64,000 nucleotides of DNA, from positions 62,001 to 126,000 of IMG/VR virus record IMGVR_UViG_3300033149_001352. The stretch is one strand, 5' to 3'. The translations under genes and the position numbers were made by a program. This DNA comes from a virus. Positions 32,486 through 64,000 of this stretch are shown here, one piece after another. Under the pieces are notes generated by a model, which was not told the origin of the DNA, did not search any database, and saw only the letters and a list, made by a program, of their open reading frames with translations. Each line of letters begins with the position of its first letter. Within the stretch, counting starts at the first letter, position 1.

Positions 32486-35281
32486 TTATCTATGCCTTTG
32501 TAGATTCCCTATCAATGTTGTCTTAATCTTCTTTGTGTAGAGCAATATCGTGTGGTATGCATCTACTACCGGTCTCCTAAAGTAATCTTCTAGGAGTGTA
32601 CCGTTTATTAGATGTCTACGAATGTTCCACACAGTAGAGTGTAGGTCTTGTATAATAGCAGAGTCGCTAAGATGTACCCTAGCACCCATTCTAATACTAT
32701 CAGAGAAGTATTCATAGTCCGTTACGTACTTACGATAGAGATTATAGAAGACACCATCGATAATCACTTCCTGTATGAAGCTATACGTAATATAGAATAA
32801 TACCCCAGGGTCATAGACTTCTATTTCTTGCCTCAACCGCATTCTGTACAGTCTACGCAGTATTGTAGCAGTAATATCCATATCTTCAGTTAAGTGTCGT
32901 ATATGGTCTAAGGCATAGGTATAGACACCACTTAGATCTAAGTCCTCAGATCGTAGGATTGTTATGAATTGACCGAATACAGTACTTAAGGTATCTATCA
33001 GGTCCATTGACTGAGATAGTATCTGAACTATGTACCTGTATAGTTCGTTATAGTCTAATATTACCAGCTCTTCTAACTCTCTGCTTACAGCTACCTGGAA
33101 CGCTACTTCCCTTCCCATAGCTATCCATTCTTTCATTAATCTAAAGGCTGTAGATGAAGTGAGTACAGATGATATGATTGCTATGTCCTGTAACATATCC
33201 TTATAGAACTGAGAGATATGACTAAGGGTTCCTGTCAGCTGTATTTGCTCTACGAATATCTCCACCTGACCTACAAACATTACAGTAAGTGCTTCGAAGT
33301 ATATCCTGTCTTCAATCGATCTATAGAATGATACGATATTGTTTAGAGTGTCTATGATACCTGTAGACTCTATGTAATCCCTAGTCCAACTACTAACAGA
33401 ATCAATATAATCTGCTGTAGTAATAGTCTCAGACCACCCATATACCAACGACATTAGATAGCTTAGATGTTCAGTAACTACGAGGTATTCTTTATGTGCA
33501 CTATAGACATCTGTAACTCTATAATACAAGCTCTGGATTGACAATACGTCTGTGATATACTTACGGTAGAGATGCGTTACTGAATCAGAGATTGATATTG
33601 GTGTTAGCAGGTCAATAACAGATCCAGTAAATACTCTATCTAATATTGAGATAGCTTCTGTTGATACTCTCCTAATAGCCCTTGTTATATCTGATTGTAC
33701 TGCCATTATATCAGATACGTATTGTCTGATAGACCTAGATACTATAATCGCTGGGACTATAGATAATCCTCGTATCAGGGATGCATGCCATTCAGATATA
33801 TGACTGAGGGAATCGCTTAGCAGTGTACTTACTACGATATACACCCTACCCGACCACCGTATAAATGAGACATCTACGAACTGTAATGTATCTATAAGAT
33901 CAACCAACGTAGTACCAACTGACTCCAACATATCAGCCACCGTAACTCCAACGTTCAATGACAGTACAAAGGACGAGATTGTACCAAAGAATGGCTGCCA
34001 CAGGTTCATACCATCTACAATCTCGAAGAACGTATTCCAGGCTCTGCCCCAATAATCAGATAGACTAATGGATTGGTACACCCGGTAGTGCACGTCCCAT
34101 ATAGTAGACGTAATATAATCTGTTAGTAGTCTTACCTCTGTGTCTAAGATAAGTATATGATATTCGAAGTATGCTGTCTTGAGGTAATGTATCAATGTCA
34201 TTGGCTGTGATACGTATCTCTCTATTTGCCATATGGTAGAGAATAATACCTGTGTTATGTCTAATCCTTGGAGGAAAGTTATAGCTCTGCCTATTAGTGG
34301 TTCTAAGTAGTCTCCTGTGTCTATATCATTAACGAAGTCAATGTACGCTAACCACGCTGAATTGTAGTAGCTATCTAACAACACTGGCTGCATCATTGCC
34401 TCATACCACTCGGAGATATACGATATGAAATGGGATAGACTTATGGACTGTAGTATGTAGCATATGTGTTCCTGTGATGTCTTGATGAGCCCTGTTATGT
34501 CTATTGATTCTCCTACCAATCTGTCAATGTTCCACACAGATGGGTGTAGATAGGAGGGAAACGTGATATACTCGTTCCTTAGTCTAAAGGAGCTCCAAGT
34601 CTCTCTAAATATTGAGGTTATGTCCATCTCCTGCAGCCTGACTAAATAGAAGCTGATATTGCAGGATAGGTAATCTGTTATATCTATAGATTGAAGGATA
34701 GTGTATAACCAGTTAGATACTGTATCGTACATGTCTGCTAGATTGATACTGCTGTAGATGCTTAGATACGCATTCCATGCTCTATATCTATAATCGATCA
34801 AGTCCACCAATTGTAGCATTGTAAGCTTCAGTCTTATCTTTTCTAACATGTCTTGTAAAGCAGTGGATTGTGTCAGGATTAAGAAGATGGTCCATATGTG
34901 GTACAGATAAGAGTTTAGTGTCATCTGTTCCAGGTAGATACTAAAGGTGTCGGATGCGTAGGATAGGTAATCTCCTATAGCAACAGATTGCTTACTGTAG
35001 TGTGTTATGGACTTAGAGATATAGTGACTTAGATCTAAGCCCTCGTGGGGAAATCTTGCAATATTCCATAGATACCTATAGAAGCTCTGTAGGTACATTG
35101 CATCTACTATTAGAAGACTGACTATACTAGCAATATAATCTCCTACACTGAGTGTATCAAATACATTCTTGGTAAGTCTAAATGATAATGTAGCTTCCCA
35201 TATAATAGGAAACGTATATGGGAAATCACCAGCAGTATGTATACCCAGGTTCTCCTCAAAGTCCTTAGTATAGGAAGCCAT
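32486..35281 (-). CDS. large helical-repeat virion protein
   Basis: 931 aa, GGAGAGA before the ATG. It is built almost wholly from a degenerate unit of about 45-60 residues: a helix rich in Tyr/Trp, then a phrase such as QSISLSDYWGRAWN, QSIDITDYLSCNISFY or EDLDLSGVY. No Cys-based metal site. The length, repeat style and position among appendage genes suggest a fibrous or plate-like tail component, or a tail-tube accessory. No family recognised; the repeat is shared with 23864 and with the open frame at 60187. Carries two CTTAGATCTAAG palindromes. Confidence 0.65.
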   Translation of the reverse strand: MASYTKDFEENLGIHTAGDFPYTFPIIWEATLSFRLTKNVFDTLSVGDYIASIVSLLIVDAMYLQSFYRYLWNIARFPHEGLDLSHYISKSITHYSKQSVAIGDYLSYASDTFSIYLEQMTLNSYLYHIWTIFLILTQSTALQDMLEKIRLKLTMLQLVDLIDYRYRAWNAYLSIYSSINLADMYDTVSNWLYTILQSIDITDYLSCNISFYLVRLQEMDITSIFRETWSSFRLRNEYITFPSYLHPSVWNIDRLVGESIDITGLIKTSQEHICYILQSISLSHFISYISEWYEAMMQPVLLDSYYNSAWLAYIDFVNDIDTGDYLEPLIGRAITFLQGLDITQVLFSTIWQIERYVSQPMTLIHYLKTAYFEYHILILDTEVRLLTDYITSTIWDVHYRVYQSISLSDYWGRAWNTFFEIVDGMNLWQPFFGTISSFVLSLNVGVTVADMLESVGTTLVDLIDTLQFVDVSFIRWSGRVYIVVSTLLSDSLSHISEWHASLIRGLSIVPAIIVSRSIRQYVSDIMAVQSDITRAIRRVSTEAISILDRVFTGSVIDLLTPISISDSVTHLYRKYITDVLSIQSLYYRVTDVYSAHKEYLVVTEHLSYLMSLVYGWSETITTADYIDSVSSWTRDYIESTGIIDTLNNIVSFYRSIEDRIYFEALTVMFVGQVEIFVEQIQLTGTLSHISQFYKDMLQDIAIISSVLTSSTAFRLMKEWIAMGREVAFQVAVSRELEELVILDYNELYRYIVQILSQSMDLIDTLSTVFGQFITILRSEDLDLSGVYTYALDHIRHLTEDMDITATILRRLYRMRLRQEIEVYDPGVLFYITYSFIQEVIIDGVFYNLYRKYVTDYEYFSDSIRMGARVHLSDSAIIQDLHSTVWNIRRHLINGTLLEDYFRRPVVDAYHTILLYTKKIKTTLIGNLQRHR

Positions 35282-39282: not shown

Positions 39283-39465
39283 TTATCTATTCTTCTCGCC
39301 AAATAATATCTTATAGATAGAAATAGGAATTAGGAGTATAAGTGCTATAATGACTATAATAGGATTGAGTCTATTGGAGGTTCTTACCTGTTTAACCCTG
39401 CCATCAGGTCCTCTTAGGACTATGTCTACCTGGTCTTTCCACTGCATATCATCTTTAGCACTCAT
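39283..39465 (-). CDS. small C-terminally anchored membrane protein
   Basis: 60 aa. The polar N-terminus (VDIVLRGPDGRVKQVR) is followed by one hydrophobic segment at about 32-53 (LNPIIVIIALILLIPISIY) and a basic end (KILFGEKNR). The ATG overlaps the stop of the glycosyltransferase gene. Could be a virion or holin-like accessory protein; phage proteins with this arrangement are common. Confidence 0.65.
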   Translation of the reverse strand: MSAKDDMQWKDQVDIVLRGPDGRVKQVRTSNRLNPIIVIIALILLIPISIYKILFGEKNR

Positions 39466-41309
39466 GGAGGATCACCGAACTTTACCTGCTTCATTATCAG
39501 TTGATCCTGATGTCTCTTAAAGTCTTCATAGGTAACCGGGTAGTTCATAGCCAGATGCTTGAGTTTAACGTTGGTGTCTACCTTTATCTTGAATCCTGAT
39601 TCTCTAACTTTAGAACAGTTATGTACAGTGATAGATTCTGCGACGTACGACTCTGCTCCATCAACGCTAATGTTATACACTGGTCCTAGATATCGTTGTC
39701 TATGTATAGATCGGATGGGAATCCAGAATCCTCCTTGTGTGCTCAATGAGTCTCCTATTCTCAAATGATCAACCTCTCGAATCATACTTGTTTTACCCTT
39801 TAACCTTCCACTTATTCCAGTAAGGGCATTGAACCTATCTTGCATCTGGGACGGTATTTGGATTACATATCTGTAATTATCATAGGACTTGATAGAAGGC
39901 AATATACCAGTTCTTAATAACACATACTTTAATTGTCTTGATAGGAGTGGAGACGTTGTAACAGCAGATTGGTAGTGTCCATCTCCTTTGAAGTATCCTG
40001 TTAATATATATCCTATCTGGTCTGATGAGAGAGAGTTAATGAATCTGGGTAGTCTCTTAAGGCTAGCTCCCTTCCCGAATAGATTAGTAAACAACCTAGC
40101 CATTATCTTGGAGTTTATGTACACCTTAGTAGCGGAGTCATCTTCTGATACATGCACATCTATACCTATATCTTCCATGGTATTCTTTGTGTGATCTATC
40201 ATATTGTGTTCAGAAGATCCAAAACAGAAGTATACTTGGTGTTGTGTTGAGTACCCTTCTGCTATATAGTACCCCATGGTTTCTAAGACGGAGTCTGTTA
40301 AGTCTATTCTATTTGGGATGTGATTATGTCTTGCTCTATTATAGTACCACTCATTGTTACTTCTACTTAATTGATTGGTGGAGATATAATGCGGCAGATA
40401 GATTGAAGACAGATGTCTACGATTATCTACATATTTAGGAATGAATACCCTATCACTTCTATTGATATATTTTGCTATCTTCCACTTATTCTTTAGATGT
40501 ACATTAGCTGACTCTATAGATTGTACTAGTACTGGATGATTGCCAGTTAACCATACCGTGTTGTCATAATACGGTTCTATTCCAATGAGGTACCCATTGT
40601 ATGGTCTAGACATGACATCTGTGACAGTAGAGAGATTACCTCTATGTGTAAGTACTCTATCTCCTATCTTCAGCATCTCAATTGGAGACAGTGTATCTCC
40701 TAATATTAGTGTACCAGGGGGTACACAGAAGGAGTAGTCTTCGGAGAACTCTGTAAACTCAAATGGTGGGAACTCTATCTCTTGGAATACATCCCTGCGT
40801 ATGAGTACAAATCCCATACCTATTCCGTCTACGTAATATGGTTGTCCATCCTTCCATTGGATTAGGTGAGTATATCCTTCTTGATTATCTAAGTTCTTGA
40901 CCTTGAGTGACATTAACGGATGGTAGGGGGGACCCTTCTGGAAATATAAGCCTGAGACTATAGGTTCATTATGGAGCCACAGTCTCATCAATGCATCAGG
41001 TTCAGGTATGCAGTCATCATCCCAGAATAGTATATGTGTTGCATTGGGAGCCTTTACTAGAAAGTCAGCTACCAGTGCATTCCTAGCCTTATCCAGCGGT
41101 ATCATGTTTGTTGAATGGAAGTAATGTTTAGGCTTAATTAATCTGATATAGGAGTTCATTAACTCTATAGATATTATACCTTCGCTGGGCATAGCAATGA
41201 ATATCTCCCCATCCATAACTTCTTCATCAAGGTGCTGGTGCTGATTGCTCTTTAGGGACGCTGGCTCTCCCTTTATCTGATTGGCTAGTTCCTTCAATTT
41301 ATCACTCAT
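39462..41309 (-). CDS. GT-A glycosyltransferase interrupted by an intein
   Basis: 615-aa precursor from ATG 41309 (overlapping the stop of the methyltransferase gene). Removing the intein (residues 195-564) leaves about 245 aa. The enzyme half has IFIAMPSEG at the N-terminus, NALVADFL, FWDDDCIP (the DxD-type metal motif, about 97-99) and VDGIGMGFVLIRRD, then SEDYSF joined to CSKVRESGFKI after splicing, as in family 2-like transferases. The intein breaks the conserved ED.-C region near the active site. It probably transfers a sugar to virion, DNA or host-surface acceptors as part of the cassette with 42951-47145. Confidence 0.85.
   Translation of the reverse strand: MSDKLKELANQIKGEPASLKSNQHQHLDEEVMDGEIFIAMPSEGIISIELMNSYIRLIKPKHYFHSTNMIPLDKARNALVADFLVKAPNATHILFWDDDCIPEPDALMRLWLHNEPIVSGLYFQKGPPYHPLMSLKVKNLDNQEGYTHLIQWKDGQPYYVDGIGMGFVLIRRDVFQEIEFPPFEFTEFSEDYSFCVPPGTLILGDTLSPIEMLKIGDRVLTHRGNLSTVTDVMSRPYNGYLIGIEPYYDNTVWLTGNHPVLVQSIESANVHLKNKWKIAKYINRSDRVFIPKYVDNRRHLSSIYLPHYISTNQLSRSNNEWYYNRARHNHIPNRIDLTDSVLETMGYYIAEGYSTQHQVYFCFGSSEHNMIDHTKNTMEDIGIDVHVSEDDSATKVYINSKIMARLFTNLFGKGASLKRLPRFINSLSSDQIGYILTGYFKGDGHYQSAVTTSPLLSRQLKYVLLRTGILPSIKSYDNYRYVIQIPSQMQDRFNALTGISGRLKGKTSMIREVDHLRIGDSLSTQGGFWIPIRSIHRQRYLGPVYNISVDGAESYVAESITVHNCSKVRESGFKIKVDTNVKLKHLAMNYPVTYEDFKRHQDQLIMKQVKFGDPP
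39618..40727 (-). mobile_element. intein in the GT-A glycosyltransferase
   Basis: 370 aa, begins CVPPGTLILGD, ends SITVHN, +1 Cys. B block TGNHPVLV. LAGLIDADG motifs MGYYIAEGY and LTGYFKGDGH both keep acidic residues, so a working endonuclease is plausible. A glycosyltransferase is an unusual intein host. Confidence 0.9.
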
Positions 41310-42951
41310 TATTCTCACCTGGTTTAGTTGCCTCTATGTAAATAGATACCTCTGGATGCAGGTCGTATGTCTGGTTTCTTATTATATCTGACTTAGAGCT
41401 ATTGAACTCAGATACATGAACATCTATGAATCCAGCATTCTCAAGTAGATTGGTTAGTGCCACGGCATCATACACTGTTCTGTGTCCAGCCATAGAAACT
41501 AACCACAGTCTTTGGGCATCGTCCTCTGCATCTCTTACGTTCTTATCGAATATACCAAAGTCTCCTATGGATCCATCGGCATATTTGCTACATATCTTTC
41601 TTAGGTCTGGCGTAGCTACACGGAATGTACCGCCTGGTCTGAGAACCCTAAAGACCTCATTTACTACTTTCTTTCCCTGTTTTCGATCAAGATGCTCCAT
41701 TATGTGTGAGGCAACTACACATTCTACGGAGCTGTCCTTTTCTCTTATCTTTAGACTGATGTCGTACTGGGTAAATCTACATCCTAGATGCTCTGCATTG
41801 CTATGAAGAGGCAGTATGTCTATGTTCTTCCAACCATAGCTGAACATATCCATATATGAACCCAGATTCAATTTGATGAGACCATCATCAGGTGGCATAT
41901 TTCGATGTGGGTCTCCACACTCCATCTCCTCTTTATCTACAATCTCAACCTTATGGTCCGGTGCTATGTTGCTAAATTGCTCTATCCACCACTCCCTTGG
42001 TTTAAGAGTACCTTTATCGTGGGTTGGGTCTACATCATCTACTGGATGCTCAAACGTAATTCCGTGTAGACTTCTGTTGGATATGCGGCTTATCTCCCTA
42101 ATCATATCTTCAATGTACTCTTCAGATATATGTTCTAGGGTAGCTATACTGACAACCATATCAAACTGTTTATCGCTGAAGGGATATGGTGTTACCCGTA
42201 AGTCCCACATGATATGATCCTTAATGACTCTATTTGCATTACACCACCCTGATATGTCTAGGTTGGTGGTGGGTATACCTAGTTCTTCTAGGTGCTTTGA
42301 TACATATCCCCTGGCACCTCCAATGTTCAGTATTGATTCAGGGATCCTCTGCATAATAAACTTCACCGTATTCCAATGTACCGGGAAGTCTAAGTATAGG
42401 TCATAAGGAGCACCAGGTCCACCATCAAAGTATTCTATTTCGTAATCTGTTGTGGTGTCGTAACCTTTGTTTGCTACTACTATCATATCTGTGTTACAGG
42501 TTGGAAGGGGTCCCCACACCACCTTCTTAAACCCTACTTCCTTGAGGAGTTGTGTTATCATCTTTGGAGAGAATCCTGCCTTATGGGTATTGTCAGAGTA
42601 GTTCTGATCCCCGAATATCATACATACATCATTAAAGTCCCAGTAGTCTTTATCTGCTAATATCCTTGCTTGTTCCTTTAAGTTAGGTATAACAAATACA
42701 GCCTTACCATCAAAGGTTAGTATTCTATAGCACTCTCTAAGGAAATCTGGTACTTTACGCCACGGTATATGTTCTAATACGAATTGAGCATATACTCCAT
42801 CGAACTGTCCAGAGTCTATCGGGAAGGGTGTTATCTCTAGGTCATGAACTATGTCTACTGTAGGTCCCGGCCTGATATCGATGTTTGGTCTAAAGACCGG
42901 TTGATCACCACCACCAAGTTCTATTACTCTATCAGATGAACTGAATATCAT
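41302..42951 (-). CDS. triple methyltransferase fusion
   Basis: 549 aa from ATG 42951 (TAATG overlap with the upstream gene). Three class I SAM-methyltransferase-like segments follow one another: (1) VIELGGGDQP at about 9, then LEHIPW and YRILTFDGK; (2) ILNIGGARGYV at about 205, then TLEHISEEY; (3) KLNLGSYMD at about 357, then IMEHLDRK and FRVLRPGGTF. All have the glycine-rich motif I or a variant and an LEH/MEH motif. Probably methylates sugars or other cell-surface or virion groups with the neighbouring glycosyltransferases; acceptors unknown. Confidence 0.85.
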   Translation of the reverse strand: MIFSSSDRVIELGGGDQPVFRPNIDIRPGPTVDIVHDLEITPFPIDSGQFDGVYAQFVLEHIPWRKVPDFLRECYRILTFDGKAVFVIPNLKEQARILADKDYWDFNDVCMIFGDQNYSDNTHKAGFSPKMITQLLKEVGFKKVVWGPLPTCNTDMIVVANKGYDTTTDYEIEYFDGGPGAPYDLYLDFPVHWNTVKFIMQRIPESILNIGGARGYVSKHLEELGIPTTNLDISGWCNANRVIKDHIMWDLRVTPYPFSDKQFDMVVSIATLEHISEEYIEDMIREISRISNRSLHGITFEHPVDDVDPTHDKGTLKPREWWIEQFSNIAPDHKVEIVDKEEMECGDPHRNMPPDDGLIKLNLGSYMDMFSYGWKNIDILPLHSNAEHLGCRFTQYDISLKIREKDSSVECVVASHIMEHLDRKQGKKVVNEVFRVLRPGGTFRVATPDLRKICSKYADGSIGDFGIFDKNVRDAEDDAQRLWLVSMAGHRTVYDAVALTNLLENAGFIDVHVSEFNSSKSDIIRNQTYDLHPEVSIYIEATKPGENNE

Positions 42952-44015
42952 TACCACTTCACTCCCTCAACTATACGATCAAAGGTATGTAAGTATTGCT
43001 TAGAGATTATAGGTATACTAAATCTCTCCTCTACAGTCTGGCGACACTTGTGATTGTCTATTGTGTCTACCTTCTGTATATATCTAGCCCACTCTACTGG
43101 GTCTGATGTATTAACTATGAACCCATTCACTCCGTGTTCTATTATTTCTGGTAGAGCTCCACTGTTGGATGCTATGACTGGAGTTCCACATGCTAGTGAT
43201 TCCAACGCTAGTAGGCTCCATGCTTCATCTACTTTAGATGGAAGTAATAGTGCCTTAGATCTCTGTAATAGATTTACTTTGGTGTCATGAGACACTGTTC
43301 CCCACATTATAATGTCGGGTCTTTTACCTGCATAATAGCCCCCTATGTCTGGTTCTATCAGGCTGTTGATACGCTCTTTATATTCTTGATTTGTACCGAA
43401 TTCGGTTTCTCCGGCAATGTCTATAGGAACATTAGCTATCTTAGCGGCATTAATAGCTGTGTCGTGTCCTTTATGCGGTAGCATAACTCCCATACACAGA
43501 AGTTTATTATCCTTGTCATACTCTGGGGTGTACTTTTCAGTGTCTACACATAGATGAATAACTAATGAATCTTTACCATACCTCTTTACTGTATCTGTAG
43601 CTTGCCATTGAGATATGGCTATTAACCTAGGATATTTCTTTGGTAATTGAACTGGTCTTAGGTGGGATAGGTTAGATGGCGGTATACCTGACCATGTTTG
43701 TACACCGTGCATTGTCCCTGTTATCGGAACGTCTTGTAGGTAAGCCCATTTATTATGAGAATGATCACTAATTACGTCAAAGTCCTTTAGTTGATCTTTG
43801 TACATTTCATATGCACGTTGACCGAAATCTGACGTTTCTGGTGTGGGGAATAGTTCGACTCCTCGAGGAGCTTTACTTCCCTCAAGTGCAAACAATGTAA
43901 TGTCCCAGTCTGATTGAGATATGCCGCAACAGAGATCATAAACAAATGCCTCTAATCCACCGTATGTGTCTGGTGGAGTTTTAAGTACGGAGGATGATAT
44001 TACGGCTAGCTTCAT
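42951..44015 (-). CDS. GT4-family glycosyltransferase
   Basis: 354 aa, GT-B fold. N-terminus PPDTYGGLEAFVYDLC (the glycine loop), then HDHSHNKW-like DHSH, LIAISQWQ, MGVMLPHKGHDTAI, and the C-terminal ESLACGTPVIAS with E.x7.E signature (WSLLALESLACGTPV). Closely related in layout to 46123. Likely transfers sugars with retention of configuration. Confidence 0.9.
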   Translation of the reverse strand: MKLAVISSSVLKTPPDTYGGLEAFVYDLCCGISQSDWDITLFALEGSKAPRGVELFPTPETSDFGQRAYEMYKDQLKDFDVISDHSHNKWAYLQDVPITGTMHGVQTWSGIPPSNLSHLRPVQLPKKYPRLIAISQWQATDTVKRYGKDSLVIHLCVDTEKYTPEYDKDNKLLCMGVMLPHKGHDTAINAAKIANVPIDIAGETEFGTNQEYKERINSLIEPDIGGYYAGKRPDIIMWGTVSHDTKVNLLQRSKALLLPSKVDEAWSLLALESLACGTPVIASNSGALPEIIEHGVNGFIVNTSDPVEWARYIQKVDTIDNHKCRQTVEERFSIPIISKQYLHTFDRIVEGVKW

Positions 44016-46129
44016 TCTAGTAACCTTCTATAGACGTTGATGTACTTCTTTTGTATCTTATCCCACGTATATCTCTTAGCTACCTTACGTGCCTCTAATC
44101 CCATCTTCTTGACTTCGTTGGGGTTGTCATAGAAGTAATTGATATGTGTAAGTAATGTCTCAGCATCTCTAGGTTCAAACAGTAGTCCAGACTTTCCATC
44201 CTTAATCAGTTCTGATGCTCCTACACCCTTAGATGCTATGACAGGTCTGCCAGCAGCCATAGCCTCTAGTAGAGGGATTCCGAATCCTTCTGTGACTGAA
44301 TTACCAGATAGAGCAATTATTCCATTGCGTTCTACGAACAAGTTATGGTTTTGAGTTTGTACGCACCACACTATACCATTATAGCCTGACGTAGATATAT
44401 GCTTATCACATTTTAATGATCCTTTGTTGTGCAATTGTCTTATAGATATCATCCAATATTGGCTTGGTCCTATGCATTGCCCAGTCTTATTTATAATATG
44501 ACCGTTGTTGAATCTTCTCCAGAATCTGGGGGAATAACCCATCTTCAGGCACAATTGTATTAAGTCATCTCTTAATTGATCTGATACTGTATAGTATAAT
44601 ACGTGATTCCCGGATACACTGCTGCCTCCCTTCATTATACCGTCGTAGAGTTCCTTTAGCAGTCTTGTGGAATATTGTAAACACCAATCTGGTATTTTCT
44701 TATTATGACTATCACTGCCACACTTTTCTAATATTTCAGTAAGGCGAACGGAATATACCTTAATACATCCATTGTCTCTAGTGGGATGCAATCCTATATC
44801 TTTAACTAGATCAGATATTTCACCTAAGTTAACTTCGTCTTGGTTAGCGAAATGTACGAATCTGTTGCCCTTAATGTCTTGAATGTACCCCTTTGCTATA
44901 TACCATCCAATTAAACGCAATAATGATGGTAGATATAATTTATCTGGTAAGTCCTTTACTCTATATTGGGATGGATATTCTTGATTGCACAGATCAGAAG
45001 TATTGATATAGTTGCAGTCCGTTCCGTCCCATAACCCAGTTGTTGGGATATAATACCTAGTTGTTTTGTTTAAGAACCATATCGCCTCCCTGGTTCTTAG
45101 GATATCTCGTTGTTTGGGAGTATAGTAATACATTCGGTGATTAGGTGTTACAGATAAATTGAATTGATTACTGGTGAAGTTAATCATTTGACCCACGTAG
45201 GGGTTTATGTAGATCTTTTCTATTGGATTAAGTTCTAACTTGTTATTGTTTAATGTCCACACTAGATCACCTATTTCTACATCCCATATAGATTTAATAC
45301 CAGTGGCGGTAAGGAGGTTGGAGTCTTCTGAATAACAGGGTTGTACGTATACTGACATGTCATTATAGAAGTTCCACTTGTTATCTATGAATCCTCTTAG
45401 GTGTATATCTGCATGTGGATTAGCGTTCTCTACAGCAGACTTCCACTTTGATAGGGAGTTACTGTGCTTCCCGGCAAAGTGGAGTTCACCGTCATCATGT
45501 ACGAAGGCTCCCCATGCCATCATCAGGTACTTTAATCCTTTATCGGGTCCGATGGCACCCATATATCCTACCTTAAAATCATCTGGTGGTTCTACGTATT
45601 CTGGTATATATGTACCGTGTCTAATTACCTTAACATTCTTAGCTCCTATATCATTAAGGATATGTTTCTTAGACATTCTAGAAGCAGACAGTACAATATC
45701 TGCTTCTCTAATGTGTTTGGTATATAACTTGTATAGGAAGGGATTAACCATATGGTTGAAGGGATACATACCATAGACAGCATTCCATTCCTGTATACTC
45801 TCCTTTCTATTATGTGCGGGACAGTCTACTACTATCTTACACTCAGGGTTGATTTTGTGTATCTCTTCTATAGTCCTGCCGAATGGATCACCATTGAAGT
45901 GAGCTAGGTCAAACTTATTACCCCTTTCCCTTACTATCTGTGAAGCTATGTAATCTATAAAGAAGGGGTTAGATGGTACATTGTATGCAGGACATCCTAT
46001 TAGGTTGGCATCTACCACCTTAACGTCATCAAAGTACCTTGATTGAGCCTTTAGCTCATTAGTTACTACAGCACTAGCGCCTGCCGTTCTGGCTATAATC
46101 TCAGTGGTGCAGATAAACCCAGTTACCAT
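44012..46129 (-). CDS. GT4-family glycosyltransferase interrupted by an intein
   Basis: 705-aa precursor; the intein spans residues 265-610, leaving about 359 aa. The enzyme has VGYMGAIGPDKGLKYL in the middle and, after splicing, YVQP-SVTEGFGIPLLEAMAAG, the catalytic E.x7.E motif: the intein sits directly before it. Overlaps the two neighbouring transferase genes by a few bases, so all are co-translated. Confidence 0.9.
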   Translation of the reverse strand: MVTGFICTTEIIARTAGASAVVTNELKAQSRYFDDVKVVDANLIGCPAYNVPSNPFFIDYIASQIVRERGNKFDLAHFNGDPFGRTIEEIHKINPECKIVVDCPAHNRKESIQEWNAVYGMYPFNHMVNPFLYKLYTKHIREADIVLSASRMSKKHILNDIGAKNVKVIRHGTYIPEYVEPPDDFKVGYMGAIGPDKGLKYLMMAWGAFVHDDGELHFAGKHSNSLSKWKSAVENANPHADIHLRGFIDNKWNFYNDMSVYVQPCYSEDSNLLTATGIKSIWDVEIGDLVWTLNNNKLELNPIEKIYINPYVGQMINFTSNQFNLSVTPNHRMYYYTPKQRDILRTREAIWFLNKTTRYYIPTTGLWDGTDCNYINTSDLCNQEYPSQYRVKDLPDKLYLPSLLRLIGWYIAKGYIQDIKGNRFVHFANQDEVNLGEISDLVKDIGLHPTRDNGCIKVYSVRLTEILEKCGSDSHNKKIPDWCLQYSTRLLKELYDGIMKGGSSVSGNHVLYYTVSDQLRDDLIQLCLKMGYSPRFWRRFNNGHIINKTGQCIGPSQYWMISIRQLHNKGSLKCDKHISTSGYNGIVWCVQTQNHNLFVERNGIIALSGNSVTEGFGIPLLEAMAAGRPVIASKGVGASELIKDGKSGLLFEPRDAETLLTHINYFYDNPNEVKKMGLEARKVAKRYTWDKIQKKYINVYRRLLE
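44300..45337 (-). mobile_element. intein in the GT4 glycosyltransferase
   Basis: 346 aa, begins CYSEDSNLLTATG, ends IIALSGN, +1 Ser. B block TPNHRMY. Both LAGLIDADG motifs have lost the acidic residue (IGWYIAKGY; DGIMKGGS), so the endonuclease is probably dead while splicing persists. Confidence 0.9.
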
Positions 46130-54174: not shown

Positions 54175-57132
54175 ATGTCTGAAAAGCCAGTAGTAGATCT
54201 TCTTATCAAAGTCAGGACTAATTTCAGTTCAGCCCTTTCAAGTGTTAAGAAGTTAGAGACCAAGGTAAGAGGTTTACTCGACACCGTTGAACGTTTAGAG
54301 GCTAAGCGTGTTACTTTAGATATAGATACTTCAGGTGTCACTCTCTCCATCAAACAGGCACAGAACGAACTAGAGACACTCCATAAACTAATGGAGAAGG
54401 CTAAGACAGGTAGGATCACTGAGAAAGAACTGAAGCAGATGAAAGAGACAGCACAACAACTGTTCCTACAAGCGAAGGTTAAGGATCATCATCTAAAGTT
54501 AGCAGAGAAGGCATTAGAGAAGGAAAAGGAATCTGTTAGGTATGCACACGACCTCATAGAGGTAGAGAGGCGTAAAACATCAGAGGCTAGTAGACAAGTA
54601 GATACACTGAAGCAGATAGTAAGGACTGGAGGAGATATAGTAGACCAGACTAAGATCATGGATTGGGGTCCTGAGAAGTTAAAGGCTCTATTAGAAATGA
54701 CCGGTAAGATGCCTGAGCTAAGTAAGGAATGGGCAGATGCAGTTGCCCTAGGTGGGAAGGAATACAAGAAACTCCTACAGTACCAGAAATGGACCTTACC
54801 AGAAGTTAGAGATTACATAAACATTCTATATGATGGACAAAGAGCACTGTCTAGGTCTAAGAAGGAGCTGGACTATCACTTAGATACTATGACAGACCTG
54901 AAGAAAGCTGGTAAGGTAACTACTGAGCAATTTGAGAGATACAAGGCTGTAACTACGGAAACCGGTGCCCGCTTAGATGATACAAGGATTGCATTGAATA
55001 GATTCCAGAAGTTATCTGAGGACACTGCTAACCTTACTACACGTATAGCTAAGGAAGGAGGTCCTCTACCATACTACCAAAGCACATTGAGAGTCCTAGA
55101 TGATATTTTAAAGTATAGGAGTGAGAAGTTCCCGTTCTTCAGGACATTCCGTCTACCTAAGTCCTTAGTAGAGGACATGGTCCAGATAACACACGGTATG
55201 GAGAATTCTATAGATATATCTGAGAAGTGGCTTGGTACAATCAAGAATACTATAGGCACGGCACTGACCTACACAGGTCAGTTTGATAGACGTATGAGAT
55301 ATCTATCTAGAGACCTGTATATCTTTGGTCTATACTTTGATAGGTTAGGAAAAAGTGCAGTAGCTAGGTTTAAGCAGCTGATACAGACCAGCTCAGACTT
55401 AGAGGGAGCATTCGAGGATCTAGGTATCGCTGGTAGTGATGCAATGGAACCTATAATGGAGTCTATTGCTCCAATTGTCGAAGACGTTGCAGAAGTTGTA
55501 GAGGGTATAGCAGACTTTACAGAGAATATGCCAGGCAGGGGAGCAGTAGGTACTATTATACTGTTGGGCACTGTGTTCCTATCACTGTTCGGTACATTAA
55601 TGAGAGGGTTATCTGTCATTAACCTGTTCAAGAACTCTGCAATGGTTATGATAGGACAACAGAAGGAGTTAGCGGCAGCACAAGCAGACCATGAGAGACA
55701 CTTGTACAACCTTGGTATTCAGATGCAGAGTACAATTGAGAAACTTAAGGTACTAAGGGAGATGGGTGTAGATGAAGCAGAAGTCCTTAAGGTAATGGAA
55801 CATGACTTCAGGGTTCTTGATGGTGAGATAAACAGAGTACGCCAAGAGATGGTTAGCTTTGGTGGAGATACCAGTAGAACCTTATTGCTGTTAGCGGCAG
55901 GCATCGACACATTCATACGGAAAGTAAAAGCTGGTGAGATAGATAGGATAGGATTGGCTACTAAGTTAGGTATGGATGATGCTAGAGAGAGTCTATATGC
56001 CGTTAACTCAACCATGGAGGTTTTCAGAAGGAGATCTCTGGAAGGGGAAGAAGGTATACTCTCTGTTGCTAAGGCACTTAGTGGTATATTACTTGGGAAG
56101 GAGGTAGCACCTAAAGAAGATATTCTAAAGGAATTAGGGTATGACCAAAAGGTACTGGCTGAACAGACTTCAGCATTAACAAAGAGGACTAAGAGATCAG
56201 CATCTGCTAATCTTAGATGGACCGGCAGTGCGTTTGGTATGATGGTTACAGGTGGACTGACCACTGCTATGATGACGGAGATGGCTGGTGCAACAGATAG
56301 TCTAGGTGCTGGCTTTGCCAATCTATTACAACCATTCCAGCCTCTATTCGAAGCATTTGAGAGATTTACTGAATGGTTTGAGGATATCACAGAGAATATG
56401 CCTGGTTGGGGGAAGGCATTAGCCGGTGTGGGATTAATACTTGGTGGTGGTGCAATAGGAGGGGTATTAACTCAAGCTATGAGTGCTTTATCTACAAAAC
56501 TGTGGGGAATACTGTTTGGTAAGTCTATGGTTGATGCAGCTGGCGCAGCAAATGTCCCAGGACTACTATCTCCAATAATTACTAAGGCAATGGCTGTATT
56601 CAGTGGATTTGCTACCTGGTTAGGAGGTATACTATCAGCAACCTTCTTAGGTATTCCTGTTATTGGGTGGATAGCAGGTGTAGTGCTAGCTATTGGATTG
56701 ATATGGTTAGCATGGAAGAATAACTGGGGCAACATCAGGGAAAAGACTAAAGCTGTACTAGATGATATCAGGGGCTGGTTAGAGAGTATAAGTAACTGGA
56801 TACGTAAGCATCTTACTGAGCCTATCAATGAGTTCTTTGATAGAATTACAGGTGGAGGGGGACCTGCGGTTACTAAACCGGGTTATGTAACTCCGAATGT
56901 GCCTGGACTGCAGACAGGCGGAATAGTTCAGAGAGCTGGTCTCTTTAGTCTACATCCAGGGGAGACTATACTTCCATCTAATATGACGAGGGACTTGAGT
57001 AGAAGCAGTATTACTAACCACATCTATGTCACAGTAGCTATTGATAGAAGTGTAGCTAGTAGCATAGATGAGAATACAATAGGACGTATTGTCTCAGATC
57101 ACATAGCTAGGCAGTTGGGGAGGAGGATATAA
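54175..57132 (+). CDS. tape measure protein
   Basis: 985 aa, GGAGGGAG directly before the ATG. Long helical/coiled-coil N-terminal 420 residues, then hydrophobic segments at about 460-490 (GTIILLGTVFLSLFG), 745-775 (LAGVGLILGGGAIGG) and 800-850 (IPVIGWIAGVVLAIGLIWLAW), and a C-terminal domain with GLFSLHPGETILPS, typical of tape measure C-termini. It sets tail length and is ejected into the membrane with the DNA. Suggests a tail well under 200 nm (about 1.5 angstrom per residue, inference). Confidence 0.9.
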   Translation: MSEKPVVDLLIKVRTNFSSALSSVKKLETKVRGLLDTVERLEAKRVTLDIDTSGVTLSIKQAQNELETLHKLMEKAKTGRITEKELKQMKETAQQLFLQAKVKDHHLKLAEKALEKEKESVRYAHDLIEVERRKTSEASRQVDTLKQIVRTGGDIVDQTKIMDWGPEKLKALLEMTGKMPELSKEWADAVALGGKEYKKLLQYQKWTLPEVRDYINILYDGQRALSRSKKELDYHLDTMTDLKKAGKVTTEQFERYKAVTTETGARLDDTRIALNRFQKLSEDTANLTTRIAKEGGPLPYYQSTLRVLDDILKYRSEKFPFFRTFRLPKSLVEDMVQITHGMENSIDISEKWLGTIKNTIGTALTYTGQFDRRMRYLSRDLYIFGLYFDRLGKSAVARFKQLIQTSSDLEGAFEDLGIAGSDAMEPIMESIAPIVEDVAEVVEGIADFTENMPGRGAVGTIILLGTVFLSLFGTLMRGLSVINLFKNSAMVMIGQQKELAAAQADHERHLYNLGIQMQSTIEKLKVLREMGVDEAEVLKVMEHDFRVLDGEINRVRQEMVSFGGDTSRTLLLLAAGIDTFIRKVKAGEIDRIGLATKLGMDDARESLYAVNSTMEVFRRRSLEGEEGILSVAKALSGILLGKEVAPKEDILKELGYDQKVLAEQTSALTKRTKRSASANLRWTGSAFGMMVTGGLTTAMMTEMAGATDSLGAGFANLLQPFQPLFEAFERFTEWFEDITENMPGWGKALAGVGLILGGGAIGGVLTQAMSALSTKLWGILFGKSMVDAAGAANVPGLLSPIITKAMAVFSGFATWLGGILSATFLGIPVIGWIAGVVLAIGLIWLAWKNNWGNIREKTKAVLDDIRGWLESISNWIRKHLTEPINEFFDRITGGGGPAVTKPGYVTPNVPGLQTGGIVQRAGLFSLHPGETILPSNMTRDLSRSSITNHIYVTVAIDRSVASSIDENTIGRIVSDHIARQLGRRI

Positions 57133-58228: not shown

Positions 58229-60187
58229 ATGACAGACTGGGCATGGGAGATAAAGGTATACGATGTTGGATCAGATAAATGGATATCTGGTATAGACCAG
58301 GATCTAATTGGTCCCATAGACGTTACCAGGTCTGTCACAGAGAATGTAGGGGAATTTCACTTTGACTTTGATGTAGAGGACACTCTCATTAGTAATGAGG
58401 ATGTTGTCATACTAAATGTAGGTGTATTCGGTTCATCAATATCTAGGTGGTTTGTCGGTAGAGTAGAACAGGCTAAACAGAGAATAGACGAAGAGGACTT
58501 CTACTATGCTATAGAAGGGAAAGGTATAGACAAGGTACTACTTACCCATGACGCACCAGAAACTACATTTGGGAGTGCTCAGCAGGTAGACATTATTAAG
58601 GGCATAGTTAGTGATATTGAGTATGATTATACTAGCTCTCCGACGTGGATATCAAATGAACCTATATATGTTGAGCAGAAGGATCAGTGGCAGGACTTAT
58701 GCGTAGATGAGATAGTATCTGGGTCTTGGACTTTAACATATAGAGGCTCTACTCAATCCTATGGAACTGATTATGAGATAGACCTGAGCGGGACACCGTA
58801 CCCTTATGGTAGAGTAAAGATACTCTCTGACGCTATCAGGCTGGGTGACTATGCGTATATTACATATCAAACTACTAGAGCCAGACCGTTTGGTGACTTA
58901 GAGGACGGAGCCAGAGTTTATAGGATTACTACTTCTAACGTGTATGATGAAAACCAGACACTTGATATCAACGTTAATGGATTTGATATGTTAGGAGCTT
59001 TACAAGGAGTTACTATAGAGACAACGATACCATATGACTTTTGGTTAGATACGAGCTTAGATCTAAATACACGGGGTAGAACATCTGGAACAATACACAC
59101 CCTCTCTTATGATACAGTAGATGAGCTGTCTTACTATGAGGATTCTTCTTTCATTATCAATGAAACTCTTGTTAAACAGGCAGGCGGTGGTAATTATACA
59201 TTTACTCCAGATCCTATAGATTCATGGACTGAGTTTACTTCTAGTCCGTCACAAGAGTATTGGAGTACTGCTGGAGCTACTAAAGGTGTGTTTGACTTAG
59301 TTCGGTTCTCCGATACGTCTGCTCAGGCTGTAACGTATGGCGGGACGTTCCTAGATGATTGGGATTATACCCCAGGGATATCATCGTATACAACTGGTGT
59401 AAAGGATGGGAGCAACTACGTAGGTACTACGACTGCTACACCTGTTTATGTCACTAAGTTATGGAGAGAGTTCCCTAGTCCTCTCAACCTAAGCAACATC
59501 AACTTACGTAATCTGTTTAACTTCTACGAGTACGGTAATCCATCTTATGGTACTGTATCAGCAAAGTTATTACTAGAAACAGATACTGACAATAGAGGGG
59601 AGAAGGAATGGAACTTAGATAGCTCGTTCCCACCTGATAGATTAGTATTGGATGGGGGATGGACTGCCAAGGGATCACCTGATTACAACAACATCAGCTA
59701 CCTTAGTTTCATGGTGTATTCCGATAGTAAGACAAACATGGAGTTGTATATCGATGGAGCATTCTTTGGTAGACATCCTATACAGGCAACAGCCAGTGAC
59801 TCAGCAAGTCAGGCATTGTATGGTCTATCTAAGAGTAATGGAATAATACCATACCCAGTAATAGATAATACCATTACAACTCAGAACGAAGCACAACAGA
59901 GAGCAAACTCTATCATAGAGATGTACAAGGATCCTATTCCTATATTAGAAACAGTGACCTTTACCGATGGTAGATTGGACTTACTACCAGGAGATCAACT
60001 AAAGTTAGAGACTTGGAACTCTGGTACATATTTCCCCACGACCCGTATCGTGTCAGTTTCTCATCATATAGAAGATGAAGATATGCAGACTACTATAGAG
60101 TGCAAATCCAGTTCACCCACCGGCATAGAGTCATATATGCAGGAACTAGAAATAGAGATAAGGAGACTGGAGATGCGTGAGCTATAA
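58229..60187 (+). CDS. tail-tip/baseplate hub protein
   Basis: 652 aa. N-terminal strands (AWEIKVYDVGSDKWI, DVTRSVTENVGEFHFDFD), WFVGRVEQAKQ, FYYAIEGKGIDKVLLTH and a C-terminal LDLLPGDQLKLETWNSG with AQQRANSIIEMYKDP match phage hub proteins of the gpD/Tal type. An inserted beta domain lies at about 320-520. Ends by TAATG overlap with the following large gene. Confidence 0.7.
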   Translation: MTDWAWEIKVYDVGSDKWISGIDQDLIGPIDVTRSVTENVGEFHFDFDVEDTLISNEDVVILNVGVFGSSISRWFVGRVEQAKQRIDEEDFYYAIEGKGIDKVLLTHDAPETTFGSAQQVDIIKGIVSDIEYDYTSSPTWISNEPIYVEQKDQWQDLCVDEIVSGSWTLTYRGSTQSYGTDYEIDLSGTPYPYGRVKILSDAIRLGDYAYITYQTTRARPFGDLEDGARVYRITTSNVYDENQTLDINVNGFDMLGALQGVTIETTIPYDFWLDTSLDLNTRGRTSGTIHTLSYDTVDELSYYEDSSFIINETLVKQAGGGNYTFTPDPIDSWTEFTSSPSQEYWSTAGATKGVFDLVRFSDTSAQAVTYGGTFLDDWDYTPGISSYTTGVKDGSNYVGTTTATPVYVTKLWREFPSPLNLSNINLRNLFNFYEYGNPSYGTVSAKLLLETDTDNRGEKEWNLDSSFPPDRLVLDGGWTAKGSPDYNNISYLSFMVYSDSKTNMELYIDGAFFGRHPIQATASDSASQALYGLSKSNGIIPYPVIDNTITTQNEAQQRANSIIEMYKDPIPILETVTFTDGRLDLLPGDQLKLETWNSGTYFPTTRIVSVSHHIEDEDMQTTIECKSSSPTGIESYMQELEIEIRRLEMREL

Positions 60188-63100
60188 TGTCGGCAGAGGA
60201 GAAACTAGTTTCACTATTTAGAAGGGTCAGGCGTCTCCAGGCTTTAGCTGCATTAGGAGAGATATTAGAAGATATATTTACTGATTCACTATCCTTTACA
60301 GAGTACTTCAGCTATATCATCAGAGTTCCTACTTTATCGATCTTAGAGGAGATACTATTCCAGACGTATCTATCAATAAACGTAGTTGGTAGAATAACGA
60401 TAGAGCTACTAAACATATCTCCCTTACTTAGGTGGTCTATAGGACCATATACGGATTCATTGGATATCTCTGGCACCCTTCATACAGTTCTCTTCTTTAC
60501 GGAGTCTATCTCTGCACCTGAGATATTATCGCATCTCAATGTGTACATCAATAAAAGCATTAGCCACAGCCTCCGATACATCATAGAAGTTCTACTAACA
60601 GAGACTGTATCTACGTTAGTTGAGCTCTATGCTGCTATATTCACCGCTGAGTCAGTACAGATCACAGATACTATCAGCACATATCTGATACTCCTTAAGT
60701 CTATAACATCGGAGATAGGGTATGCTATACTGATAACATATAGTGAACTAGTCGATGTCGATAGTGGAATATTGCCCAGTATTTACCAGACTGAGTCTCT
60801 GTCCATACAAGAAGGATTTGATAGCCTATACGCGTCTGTGAACAAGTCTGTCAGTGTCATAACAGATATGACATGGTTTGTTAGGAGTGAGGTACTCCTC
60901 CCCGAGGTCATTGCTCTATCTACTCTAATATTTGCAGTGCTCAGCAATCTGATAGAGGACTTAGATCTAAGTGATAGTGTGTACAGCATTAATACGGCTA
61001 GCATTAAGTCCATAGAGATGATTGATCAACTGCTCTCATACATGAGACTTGTATTATCAGACTCTTTAGACATAGTTCCCGGTAACTTAGTAGGATTATT
61101 GATAGGTGAGGGACTGTCTGTATCTGATACAGTAGACAACTGCTACACAGCACTGAGCGTAAGCGTAGCCAGTATAGATCAGCTACTTATGTATATGTCT
61201 ACGTCATTATCAGACACTCTATCTATAGTCAGTGGTATGATCACAGGGGTAACTGTATCTGACAGTATGAGTGTTGTAGATACATCCCGTAATGTCTATC
61301 CTGCTCATAGATTGGGGGGATATATGCCACCGCTAGATTGTAGGTTATGGTTAACCTTTGATGAGGGAACCGGTATAGATGTGTATGATGTAACTGATTA
61401 CCAGAATGATGGACAGCTGGTTGGTGGAGCTGGCTTTACAGATGGAATCCGTGGTAGTGCGTATGCCGGTGGTGGTTCAACGGAGAGGTGTAAAATCGAT
61501 CATAGTACGTCTCTGGATTTCACAGATACCGTATCTTGCTGTGGATGGATATACCAAGATGGTAATGCTACATCAACCTACCAGAGAATCACTGACAAGG
61601 GTGGGGCTATAACTTGCTGGTTGGAGGATGAGAGCAGTTCTCCCTCGGGCGCATTTGCAGTTAGGCTCACAGCATCTAAGGGCAGTAGCTACCAACAGGT
61701 TAGGTTCTATACTGGACTATCATTAGATATACCATACTTCTTTGCATGGACATATGATAAGGATGACTCAACTAAGAGACTTAGGTTGTGGATAGATGGA
61801 GAGGAGTTTAATGGTAGTACAGAGCCTAGTGATGGGTACAACTACTACTATGGGTCTATGTCAACTAACACAGACGACCTTTACGTAGGTAATCAGGAAA
61901 CTGGTGATAGAGGTTGGTATGGATGGATAGATGAGCTGATGTTCTTTAATGATCCATTTACGGATGATATAGTTACCAGCTTATATCGTAATGGACCTCC
62001 TCTGAGGTTTAGAGTTAGATTGCTTACCACCCTAGCCAATATTATCGCAGATACACTATCGGTCAGTGGCAAGATAATATCAGGTATAACTAGTAGTGAC
62101 TCTCTATCCATTACTGATTCTATGGAGAATATCAGAACCAGATTTACTAAGTCTGTAAGTGTTGGTGTACTATTGATGTTCTCATTAGTCCATATACTGC
62201 AGGAGTCCATTGGTGTAGCTATTGCCCTCAACACAGGAGTTTCAGCTTATGGACTTGGTTTATATGTAGATACTACCTTCTCAGAAGGAGGAGCTTACAT
62301 CAAGCGTTCAGTTAGTGCTCCATGTACTACTGATGGAGAATGGCACGCAGATGACTGGAGTGATAGCGATCATACGGACTGGACAGACTATTTAGATAGT
62401 TATGTAGATAATCCACACGCTGATCATTCTGATGGACACAACGATTGGACAGATCACTACGAGGACCATCAGGATGACTTACACAACGACTGGAGTAACT
62501 ACAATGATCATATCAATCACGATGATATGGTATGGTCAGATGCACACCTTAACTGGACTGACCACGCCAATCACCAGGATGATACTCACGGAGACTGGGA
62601 TGACTATACTGATCATAGTGACTGGAGTGATACTCATATAGATCACAATGATCACGATGATGTTTCACATGACGACTGGAATGACCACAGTAATTGGACA
62701 GATCATGGTGATCATCAAGATGATACTCATACAGATTGGGACGATTATACTGATCATGTAGATACCTACGATGACCATGATGACCACGATGACCATGATG
62801 ATACATACGATGACCATGATGATCATAATGATCATGATGATAGTCACTCGAATTGGACAGATCATACTGACCATCAAGACGATACTCATCAGGACTGGTC
62901 GGATTATTCAGACCATCAAAATCACTGGGATGGTCCTGACTACGGAGACCACACAGATAACACATACACTGACTGGGACGATTATGAACATAACGATCAC
63001 AGTGATGGTCATAATGACTGGACTGATGAACATCAAGACCATGACGATCATGATGACCATAGTGACCATCAGGATCATGATGACTACGATGATCATGGTG

Positions 63101-64000
63101 ATCATCAAGATGATATTTACACTGATTGGAATGACTACGATCACAACGATTGGTCTAATGGACATAGCGACCATAATGATTATGATGATGACCCATATGA
63201 CGACCACGACGATCATGGCGACCATACAGATCACAGTGACCACCAAGATGATGGCTATAGCGATTGGAATGATTACGATCATAACGATTGGTCTAATGGA
63301 CACGACGACTGGACTGATCACTACGAAGACCATACAGATAATCTACATAATGACTGGAGCGATTATACTGATCACATCAACCACGACGATAGTCTATGGA
63401 CTGACAGTGCTCACGCTAATTGGTCTGATCATAATGACTGGACAGATACAGTCCATACAGATTGGACTAATCAACCACACGCAGATGACCCACCCCATTC
63501 AGACCATTGGAATTGGGAAGATCATCTAGATGACATTTCTCCAACAGGTGGCGTTAGTCCGTGGGGAAGGAAACAGGCTAATACCAGTAACGCTACGGTG
63601 AATCATTGTAGGGCTATGGGAGGACAGAGCCCAGACAGACCTGGTATGAAGCTAAAGGCAATAGCTATCTACGTCAACAATACGATTGGTGACATTAGAG
63701 TTGCAGTTTACCAAGGTGGAAGCTTGAGTGGTGGTCCTGAAGGAGCTTCGTTGAGGTGGGATGCAGGTACTATTGGGGAAGGACAGACTGGCTGGGTAAT
63801 TAAGTACTGCTCGTCAGATGTGAGTTTATCTGCTGATACTCCAACTTGGATAGCTTGGAAAGCGAATGATAATACAAGAGAGGTAAGGTTCTCTGCGTCT
63901 AGTAGTGATGCTGGTGATTTTCAAACAGCTAGGGGTAGGTGGGATTCAACTTCTATGAGCATCGATGAAACTACAACCTACCCATCAACCTGGCCGACTG
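60187..64000 (+). CDS. giant appendage protein, open at the window edge
   Basis: At least 1271 aa in frame from ATG 60187 with no stop before the edge. Residues about 1-375 are made of the helical LSxSD(S/T)(L/V)S-type repeat also seen at 32486 and 23864. Residues about 379-605 form a LamG/concanavalin-like beta sandwich (CRLWLTFDEGTG, STSLDFTDTVSCCGWIY, WYGWIDELMFFND). Residues 719-1118 are an Asp/His/Trp-rich repeat. Residues from about 1130 form a beta-rich domain (IAIYVNNTIGDIRVAVYQGG, TPTWIAWKAND). The start overlaps the hub gene stop. Probably the main fibre or spike that contacts the host surface. Confidence 0.8.
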   Translation, partial: MSAEEKLVSLFRRVRRLQALAALGEILEDIFTDSLSFTEYFSYIIRVPTLSILEEILFQTYLSINVVGRITIELLNISPLLRWSIGPYTDSLDISGTLHTVLFFTESISAPEILSHLNVYINKSISHSLRYIIEVLLTETVSTLVELYAAIFTAESVQITDTISTYLILLKSITSEIGYAILITYSELVDVDSGILPSIYQTESLSIQEGFDSLYASVNKSVSVITDMTWFVRSEVLLPEVIALSTLIFAVLSNLIEDLDLSDSVYSINTASIKSIEMIDQLLSYMRLVLSDSLDIVPGNLVGLLIGEGLSVSDTVDNCYTALSVSVASIDQLLMYMSTSLSDTLSIVSGMITGVTVSDSMSVVDTSRNVYPAHRLGGYMPPLDCRLWLTFDEGTGIDVYDVTDYQNDGQLVGGAGFTDGIRGSAYAGGGSTERCKIDHSTSLDFTDTVSCCGWIYQDGNATSTYQRITDKGGAITCWLEDESSSPSGAFAVRLTASKGSSYQQVRFYTGLSLDIPYFFAWTYDKDDSTKRLRLWIDGEEFNGSTEPSDGYNYYYGSMSTNTDDLYVGNQETGDRGWYGWIDELMFFNDPFTDDIVTSLYRNGPPLRFRVRLLTTLANIIADTLSVSGKIISGITSSDSLSITDSMENIRTRFTKSVSVGVLLMFSLVHILQESIGVAIALNTGVSAYGLGLYVDTTFSEGGAYIKRSVSAPCTTDGEWHADDWSDSDHTDWTDYLDSYVDNPHADHSDGHNDWTDHYEDHQDDLHNDWSNYNDHINHDDMVWSDAHLNWTDHANHQDDTHGDWDDYTDHSDWSDTHIDHNDHDDVSHDDWNDHSNWTDHGDHQDDTHTDWDDYTDHVDTYDDHDDHDDHDDTYDDHDDHNDHDDSHSNWTDHTDHQDDTHQDWSDYSDHQNHWDGPDYGDHTDNTYTDWDDYEHNDHSDGHNDWTDEHQDHDDHDDHSDHQDHDDYDDHGDHQDDIYTDWNDYDHNDWSNGHSDHNDYDDDPYDDHDDHGDHTDHSDHQDDGYSDWNDYDHNDWSNGHDDWTDHYEDHTDNLHNDWSDYTDHINHDDSLWTDSAHANWSDHNDWTDTVHTDWTNQPHADDPPHSDHWNWEDHLDDISPTGGVSPWGRKQANTSNATVNHCRAMGGQSPDRPGMKLKAIAIYVNNTIGDIRVAVYQGGSLSGGPEGASLRWDAGTIGEGQTGWVIKYCSSDVSLSADTPTWIAWKANDNTREVRFSASSSDAGDFQTARGRWDSTSMSIDETTTYPSTWPT
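62341..63540 (+). repeat. Asp/His/Trp-rich repeat region
   Basis: 400 codons dominated by Asp, His, Trp, Asn, Thr, Ser, Tyr and Gln; no Lys, Arg, Cys or Phe occurs. Units look like (D/N)DWxDY, DHxDH and DHQDDTH. DWNDYDHNDWSNGH is repeated exactly at 63124-63165 and 63262-63303. Shadow ORFs on both strands in this region are side effects of the repeat. Confidence 0.85.

Follow-up and report, generated by a model that had tools for sequence, protein, structure and literature searches.

A tandem aromatic-X-Asp/Asn repeat in a viral tail-appendage protein, encoded beside a radical SAM/SPASM enzyme, as a probable substrate for cyclophane stapling

The window examined here is a stretch of 64,000 nucleotides of viral DNA (G000:62001-126000), which is part of a virus record of 136,445 bases in IMG/VR (IMGVR_UViG_3300033149_001352). 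Close to its end lies a gene for a virion appendage (tail fibre-like) protein, the middle part of which is a repeat of 400 codons. An initial annotation, made from the letters of the window, had described this repeat as a metal-binding or pH-responsive shaft and had advised extending the assembly past position 64,000. When the rest of the record was fetched, the end of the protein was located 59 bases beyond the window, giving a complete open reading frame (ORF; L002:1187-5059, 1290 aa). Genes for a radical S-adenosylmethionine (SAM; rSAM) enzyme and for a DUF483 protein follow it. The features of the locus, in window numbering, are:

60187..64000, + strand: virion appendage (tail fibre-like) gene, 1290 aa, stop codon at 64057-64059 beyond the window end
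60187..61320, + strand: N-terminal part with 'SLSxxD'-type repeats, from translations read directly
61477..61968, + strand: LamG / concanavalin A-like lectin domain (PF13385 Laminin_G_3, E=6.3e-10, 39.8 bits vs a cut-off of 27.6)
62341..63540, + strand: array of 112 triads [H/W/Y]-X-[D/N], from a direct parse; proposed substrate region for cross-linking
63541..64000, and on to 64056 beyond the window, + strand: C-terminal domain of 172 aa, in which Cys, Arg and Lys reappear
64097-65338 (L002:5097-6338): rSAM/SPASM maturase of 413 aa with an HxD tail (PF04055, E=7e-17)
65341-66189 (L002:6341-7189): DUF483 protein of 282 aa (PF04467, E=1.2e-4, family profile)

A tape measure gene (54175-57132; PHROG tail tape measure, E=3.6e-9) lies upstream of the fibre gene and is separated from it by two more ORFs, an order typical of a tail module. 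The protein is therefore best regarded as a tail-module protein, in agreement with the virion appendage proposed initially, and the LamG-like domain suspected beside the repeat was confirmed by the Pfam match. The repeat joins this domain to the C-terminal domain. No Pfam family was matched by the N-terminal part (60187..61320) or by the 172-aa C-terminal domain, and, LamG (PF13385) apart, the repeat proteins of the window virus and of Thermus phage Cumys matched no Pfam, PHROG or NCBIfam family. It may be noted that two long minus-strand ORFs (32486-35281 and 23864-24970) carry repeats of the 'S-I-S-L-x-D' type, like those of the N-terminal part; the former had no PHROG match.

The repeat (62341-63540) consists of 400 codons in frame with the ORF starting at 60187. 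Its composition (D135, H70, N31, T30, W29, S27, Y21, Q11) is as biased as was first noticed, these eight residues making up 88.5% of the total, and Lys, Arg, Cys and Phe are indeed absent from it. The regularity formerly seen as DH and DDH pairs at a spacing of two to three residues is real, but is better expressed as a triad code, aromatic-X-Asp/Asn. Asp or Asn was found exactly two residues after 112 of the 120 His, Trp and Tyr residues (99 D, 13 N), as against an expectation of 49.7 (standard deviation 4.6, maximum 67) in 5000 composition-preserving shuffles. At offsets +1 and +3 the same residues were depleted (0.34 and 0.16, vs a background of 0.415). Each of the eight exceptional aromatics adjoins or sits within a valid triad. 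When parsed without overlap, 112 triads [HWY]-X-[DN] account for 336 of the 400 residues and mostly stand back to back; 75 of the 111 steps have a gap of three. Any of His, Trp and Tyr can open a triad, and the special spacing once ascribed to Trp dissolves into the general pattern. Ser occurs chiefly at the variable positions and not at the conserved third one. His is found at +2 in only 3 of 120 cases, so HxH is nearly absent, and the repeat lacks the regular His-X-His motifs of a metal-binding fibre of that type.

Synonymous codons are mixed throughout the repeat (GAT 85/GAC 50, CAT 42/CAC 28), and therefore it is not a recent DNA microsatellite. Tandem repetition of the DNA itself is limited to short arrays (9 to 39 bases) within part of the region; with the codons mixed as well, an origin as a DNA-level repeat was considered and rejected.

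Only 37 bases separate the stop codon of the fibre gene from the start of the rSAM gene. Alignment of nine sequences revealed a set of invariant cysteines, C14-C18-C21, C249-X14-G264-X4-C269, C300-X2-C303-X5-C309-X3-C313 and C329, and the same was seen in 40 sequences. These comprise the radical SAM CX3CX2C motif together with SPASM auxiliary-cluster cysteines, as in triceptide enzymes, and fit the whole of the SPASM pattern, CX14GX4C-CX2CX5CX3C-C. The C-terminal residues of the enzyme are GGHWDGIEHSDGDERHLDSDTRQEDHVDGITHTDGGTIHQDGEVHEDC, and every His there opens an HxD triad. Such an HxD tail is carried by 62 of 78 viral rSAMs, vs 3 of 33 chromosomal ones.

The best NCBIfam matches of the window rSAM were the cyclophane maturases DynA, AmcB, YhhB, OscB/GrrM, XyeB and FxsB, together with sulfatase maturases. 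The best PDB match of the viral rSAM was anSME (4k36/4k37, E about 1e-25), and ChlB was matched with a profile E=1.2e-19 at about 18% identity. Its closest relative, L268 (49% identical), was modelled by AlphaFold at a predicted local distance difference test score (pLDDT) of 81; the tail was disordered in this model, and Foldseek placed anSME first (E=1.7e-17), then ChlB (E=1.1e-14). Judged by its sequence, the window rSAM belongs to a new subfamily outside every named cyclophane maturase family, and the exact reaction therefore cannot be read from homology. In two other loci, rSAM-like ORFs beside HxD repeats (L031:1471-2823 and L115:12071-12481) have a wider first cysteine motif, CX9CX2C, possibly an enzyme variant.

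The DUF483 protein was modelled with high confidence (pLDDT 94.5), and a search of the PDB with the model gave no significant match (best E=0.04). DUF483 is present in 72 of the 80 viral rSAM loci described below. In both the L268 virus and the window virus, the rSAM and DUF483 genes are followed by genes that read as glycosyltransferase-like (L268:10005-11297 and L002:7171-8955); the fibre may also be glycosylated.

We then asked how often repeat and enzyme occur together. Pattern scans of IMG/VR with W.DH.DH.D returned 7 chance matches only, and W.DW.DW.DW mostly trivial Trp repeats. With H.DH.DH.DH.D (four consecutive HxD triads), nine genuine repeat-protein loci were obtained, two of them near-identical; further matches to this pattern, which came from collagen-like 'HKD' genes read in an alternative frame, were discarded. 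Of the 9 HxD-repeat records, 8 had a Pfam radical SAM match, vs 0 of 7 other records of the same scan, and in the ninth an atypical rSAM-like ORF lay alongside.

The test was also run in reverse, with rSAM sequences as the only query and patterns taken from the enzyme core. With the window rSAM as a single query no close relative was retrieved, but an alignment search succeeded, and the reverse test returned 109 relatives, from which 80 viral loci were kept; these viral relatives are nearly all metagenomic, Thermus phages excepted. A dense aromatic-X-D/N repeat ORF was found in 72 of the 80 loci (65 of 73 without the seed contigs), and in 69 of the 72 it was upstream on the same strand, mostly less than 100 bases away. 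As controls, reversed sequences gave 3 of 80, other phage rSAM loci 0 of 4, and unrelated loci from the W.DH.DH.D scan 0 of 7. The four other phage loci were used in place of a control scan with another rSAM of the window virus, which found nothing. Among the eight negative loci, L346 has a Phe-X-N/S/Q repeat directly upstream and in L276 the tail of the rSAM contains YGD/HGD repeats; most of the remaining loci start near a contig end.

Among annotated cultured phages, strong matches were confined to the Thermus phages Cumys, phiMa and phiLo, which carry the module, and the last of which has three HxD-repeat proteins. Related repeats thus do occur in hot-spring phages, as the initial annotation had suggested. 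Chromosomal relatives of the rSAM occur in many phyla, many with a large HxD-rich protein upstream, and are likely to represent a cellular branch of the same chemistry. Beside one of them (L364) lies an aKG-HExxH peptide beta-hydroxylase (TIGR04267, E=3e-25). In the non-viral loci L348-L380 (e.g. L353, L361, L364, L354 and L363), an HxD-rich protein is followed by rSAM and DUF483, fused in some.

Nine orthologue pairs were compared; since alignments of repeats favour matches, we relied on the closer pairs. Amino acids differed at 7.7% of aromatic and 8.2% of D/N sites, as against 30.6% for the middle residue X and 31.9% in linkers, while synonymous change was about 25% in every site class. Across these coding sequences, purifying selection thus keeps the triad positions and not the middle residue. 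At the first position one aromatic mostly replaced another (H to F 18, F to H 10, H to Y 7, Y to H 4); at the third, exchanges between D and N predominated (44).

In 62 distinct repeats, D/N stood at +2 of 1991 of 2019 His residues (98.6%), and of 65% of Phe, 58% of Trp and 40% of Tyr, the background being about 24%. Two members are Phe-based: in L285, 37 of 43 F have N at +2, and in L346, 100 of 105 F have N, S, Q or D there. Nearly all-Phe repeats cannot be metal sites, and metal binding is not supported as the common principle of the family. Cys, absent from the window repeat, is rare or missing in most family repeats, which makes thioether chemistry unlikely; a sactipeptide or ranthipeptide (thioether) system was accordingly rejected, as the substrate repeats lack the required Cys.

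Triceptide enzymes are known to link residue i to residue i+2, in the combinations Trp-Asn/Asp, Tyr-Asp, Phe-Asn/Ser and His-Ala/Arg, by a bond from the ring of residue i to the C-beta of residue i+2 (PMC11002830). An aromatic at i with D/N (or N/S/Q) at i+2, beside a SPASM rSAM, is the signature of these systems, and it is on this ground that we propose cyclophane stapling. A substrate-like protein with an aromatic-X-X3 motif is encoded next to the enzyme here too: in the window virus it has 112 triads, and overall 72 of 80 viral loci have such a protein. Four things are directly observed, namely a triad code, selection that conserves it, the gene module and the family to which the enzyme belongs. 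An enzyme-substrate relation between the rSAM and the triad repeat is deduced, and strongly supported. The best explanation, and in our judgement a probable one, is that the shaft of a virion appendage is stapled by tandem cyclophanes. At each Asp/Asn, the rSAM/SPASM enzyme would abstract a hydrogen from the beta-carbon and couple that carbon to the ring of the aromatic two residues earlier (His, Trp or Tyr; Phe in relatives). The product would be a chain of three-residue cyclophanes, up to 112 in one structural protein. Being stapled and strongly acidic, the chain might serve as a stiff shaft, resistant to proteases and heat, that connects LamG with the distal C-terminal domain in the tail appendage. 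DUF483 might act as an accessory, e.g. as a substrate presenter or a second modifying enzyme. Both the exact bond type and the mechanical role of the shaft are deduced in this proposal.

Several points weigh against stapling. The scores of the rSAM fall far short of the curated cut-offs (DynA 84 bits vs 450, AmcB 76/425, YhhB 65/445), and its matches to sulfatase maturases are about equally good, so that family assignment alone leaves the reaction unfixed. Family-wide, only 40% of Tyr residues are followed by D/N at +2, though 86% are in the window, and HxD neighbours are missing from a Bradyrhizobium clade of the enzyme. Triceptide precursors are mostly short bacterial peptides with a leader, whereas the present protein is viral, has 1290 aa and carries 112 motifs; we know of no cyclophane substrate of that length. 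Finally, the virion location of the repeat protein is suggested by gene order and domains only, and the cross-link chemistry is deduced rather than observed.

Could the rSAM modify the triads by another reaction, such as oxidation or hydroxylation of Asp, epimerisation, or formation of a C-N or C-O bond? The distant relationship of the enzyme to characterised cyclophane synthases, equalled by that to sulfatase maturases, would allow this, as would the nearly constant presence of DUF483, a protein of unknown function, and the beta-hydroxylase beside a chromosomal relative. We nevertheless hold it to be unlikely, as the known cyclophane motif is the one seen here (an aromatic at i and D/N at i+2, or N/S/Q as well where Phe leads), thioethers would need Cys, and the aromatic ring, which seems to be required, would be needless for hydroxylation or epimerisation. 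A second alternative is a shaft that stays unmodified, binds metal or responds to pH, and has the rSAM as a mere neighbour. It is suggested by the abundance of His (70) and Asp (135) among the 400 residues and by the dominance of His among the aromatics of most family members; the rSAM linkage in 72 of the 80 loci retrieved with only the enzyme as query, the Phe-dominated L285 and L346, the H-to-F swaps in orthologues and the near absence of HxH make it quite improbable. Metal binding, originally taken as the defining principle, is not supported in that role, and the adjacent rSAM maturase, which lies outside the window and was unseen by the initial annotation, also changes the interpretation; the finished, modified shaft may still bind metal.

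A further alternative is that the rSAM/DUF483 module modifies DNA, as was suggested for Cumys in PMC11437467, which also places cyanobacterial relatives among deazapurine DNA-modification genes, and that the repeat protein is unrelated. We find this very hard to reconcile with the gene just upstream of the Cumys rSAM, which encodes an HxD-repeat protein in a conserved pairing, with the HxD motif on the enzyme itself in the majority of viral cases, or with the nearest relatives of the enzyme, which modify peptides. An assembly or low-complexity DNA artefact, to which the short tandem arrays might point, is scarcely credible for 1290 open codons in which codon use is mixed and the triads are under purifying selection at about 25% synonymous change.

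If tandem cyclophane stapling is correct, the gene pair, seen again in dozens of phages, probably represents a widespread means by which virus fibres are stapled chemically. We also lean towards a broader proposal, that a stapling system with its own radical enzyme is common to tailed viruses of archaea and bacteria, in which a disordered virion protein would be turned into a covalently cross-linked rod of 20 to >100 tandem cyclophanes, with a copy of the motif as the enzyme tail. Cyclophane chemistry would then extend from small peptide natural products to structural biology; phages could harden fibres without disulfides or intertwined trimers; and a genetically encoded stapled polymer would be at hand. 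A literature search, which left subscription journals mostly uncovered, gave no earlier description of phage cyclophanes or of a phage radical SAM enzyme acting on tail proteins.

Among the other genes of the virus, the following were recognised:

L003:9489-10556 and L004:6220-7107: TFIIB-like transcription factors (PF00382, E=5e-41 and 5e-27)
15858-20447 of the window: anaerobic ribonucleotide reductase (NRDD) interrupted by inteins

The two TFIIB proteins point to an archaeon as the most likely host. Apparent inteins were also seen in glycosyltransferases (44012-46129) and in other genes (39462-41318, L002:8952-10829, L002:13450-15222 and L003:17817-19634), and the virus appears to be unusually intein-rich. 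A clear serpin (L005:14724-15737; PF00079, E=5e-87) is present in the same record as the archaeal TFIIB genes.

As regards known systems, the tip of the T4 long tail fibre, gp37, is an HxH iron-binding needle. Like gp37, the window protein has a His-rich repeated motif in a tail fibre; unlike it, the triads are HxD, and His is replaceable by Phe, Trp or Tyr across the family. The sulfatase maturase anSME shares its SPASM layout with the viral rSAM, but acts on Ser or Cys of sulfatases, whereas Cys is absent from the window repeat and Ser there lies mainly at variable positions.

The triceptide enzymes XncB, OscB, MscB, YxdB, HaaB and YhhB too are radical SAM enzymes with SPASM, and their substrates also have an aromatic (Trp, Phe, Tyr or His) at i with Asn, Asp, Ser, Arg or Ala at i+2 (PMC11002830). 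The viral rSAM differs in its own HxD tail, its tie to DUF483 and its scores below every curated cut-off, and the substrate is not a short precursor with a leader and a cleaved core; the repeats lie in mid-protein, with LamG before them and the 172-aa domain after. ChlB, a 'multiple cyclophane synthase' by a title cited in PMC12636437, is the next-best group of solved structures after anSME. According to passages of the same paper, aKG-HExxH beta-hydroxylases act on His and Asp of cyclophane peptides (PMC12636437). Like ChlB/ChlH, the chromosomal rSAM relative has such a hydroxylase alongside; HExxH was not seen in the window virus, and the ChlB substrate is a ribosomally synthesized and post-translationally modified peptide precursor, unlike the fibre protein.

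Another known system is the three-gene 'rSAM module' of the Thermus phages Cumys and phiMa, whose role is given as unknown, with DNA modification suggested, in the passages of a 2024 paper that deal with it; these do not mention the repeat (PMC11437467). The same three adjacent genes, for an HxD-repeat protein, an rSAM with an HxD tail and DUF483, are found in the window virus, which is a different, archaeal-type virus with many WxD and YxD triads; in Cumys they are Cumys_13 (repeat protein, 343 aa), Cumys_12 (rSAM) and Cumys_11 (DUF483). Stapling of the repeat, if true, would explain this published but unexplained phage gene module.

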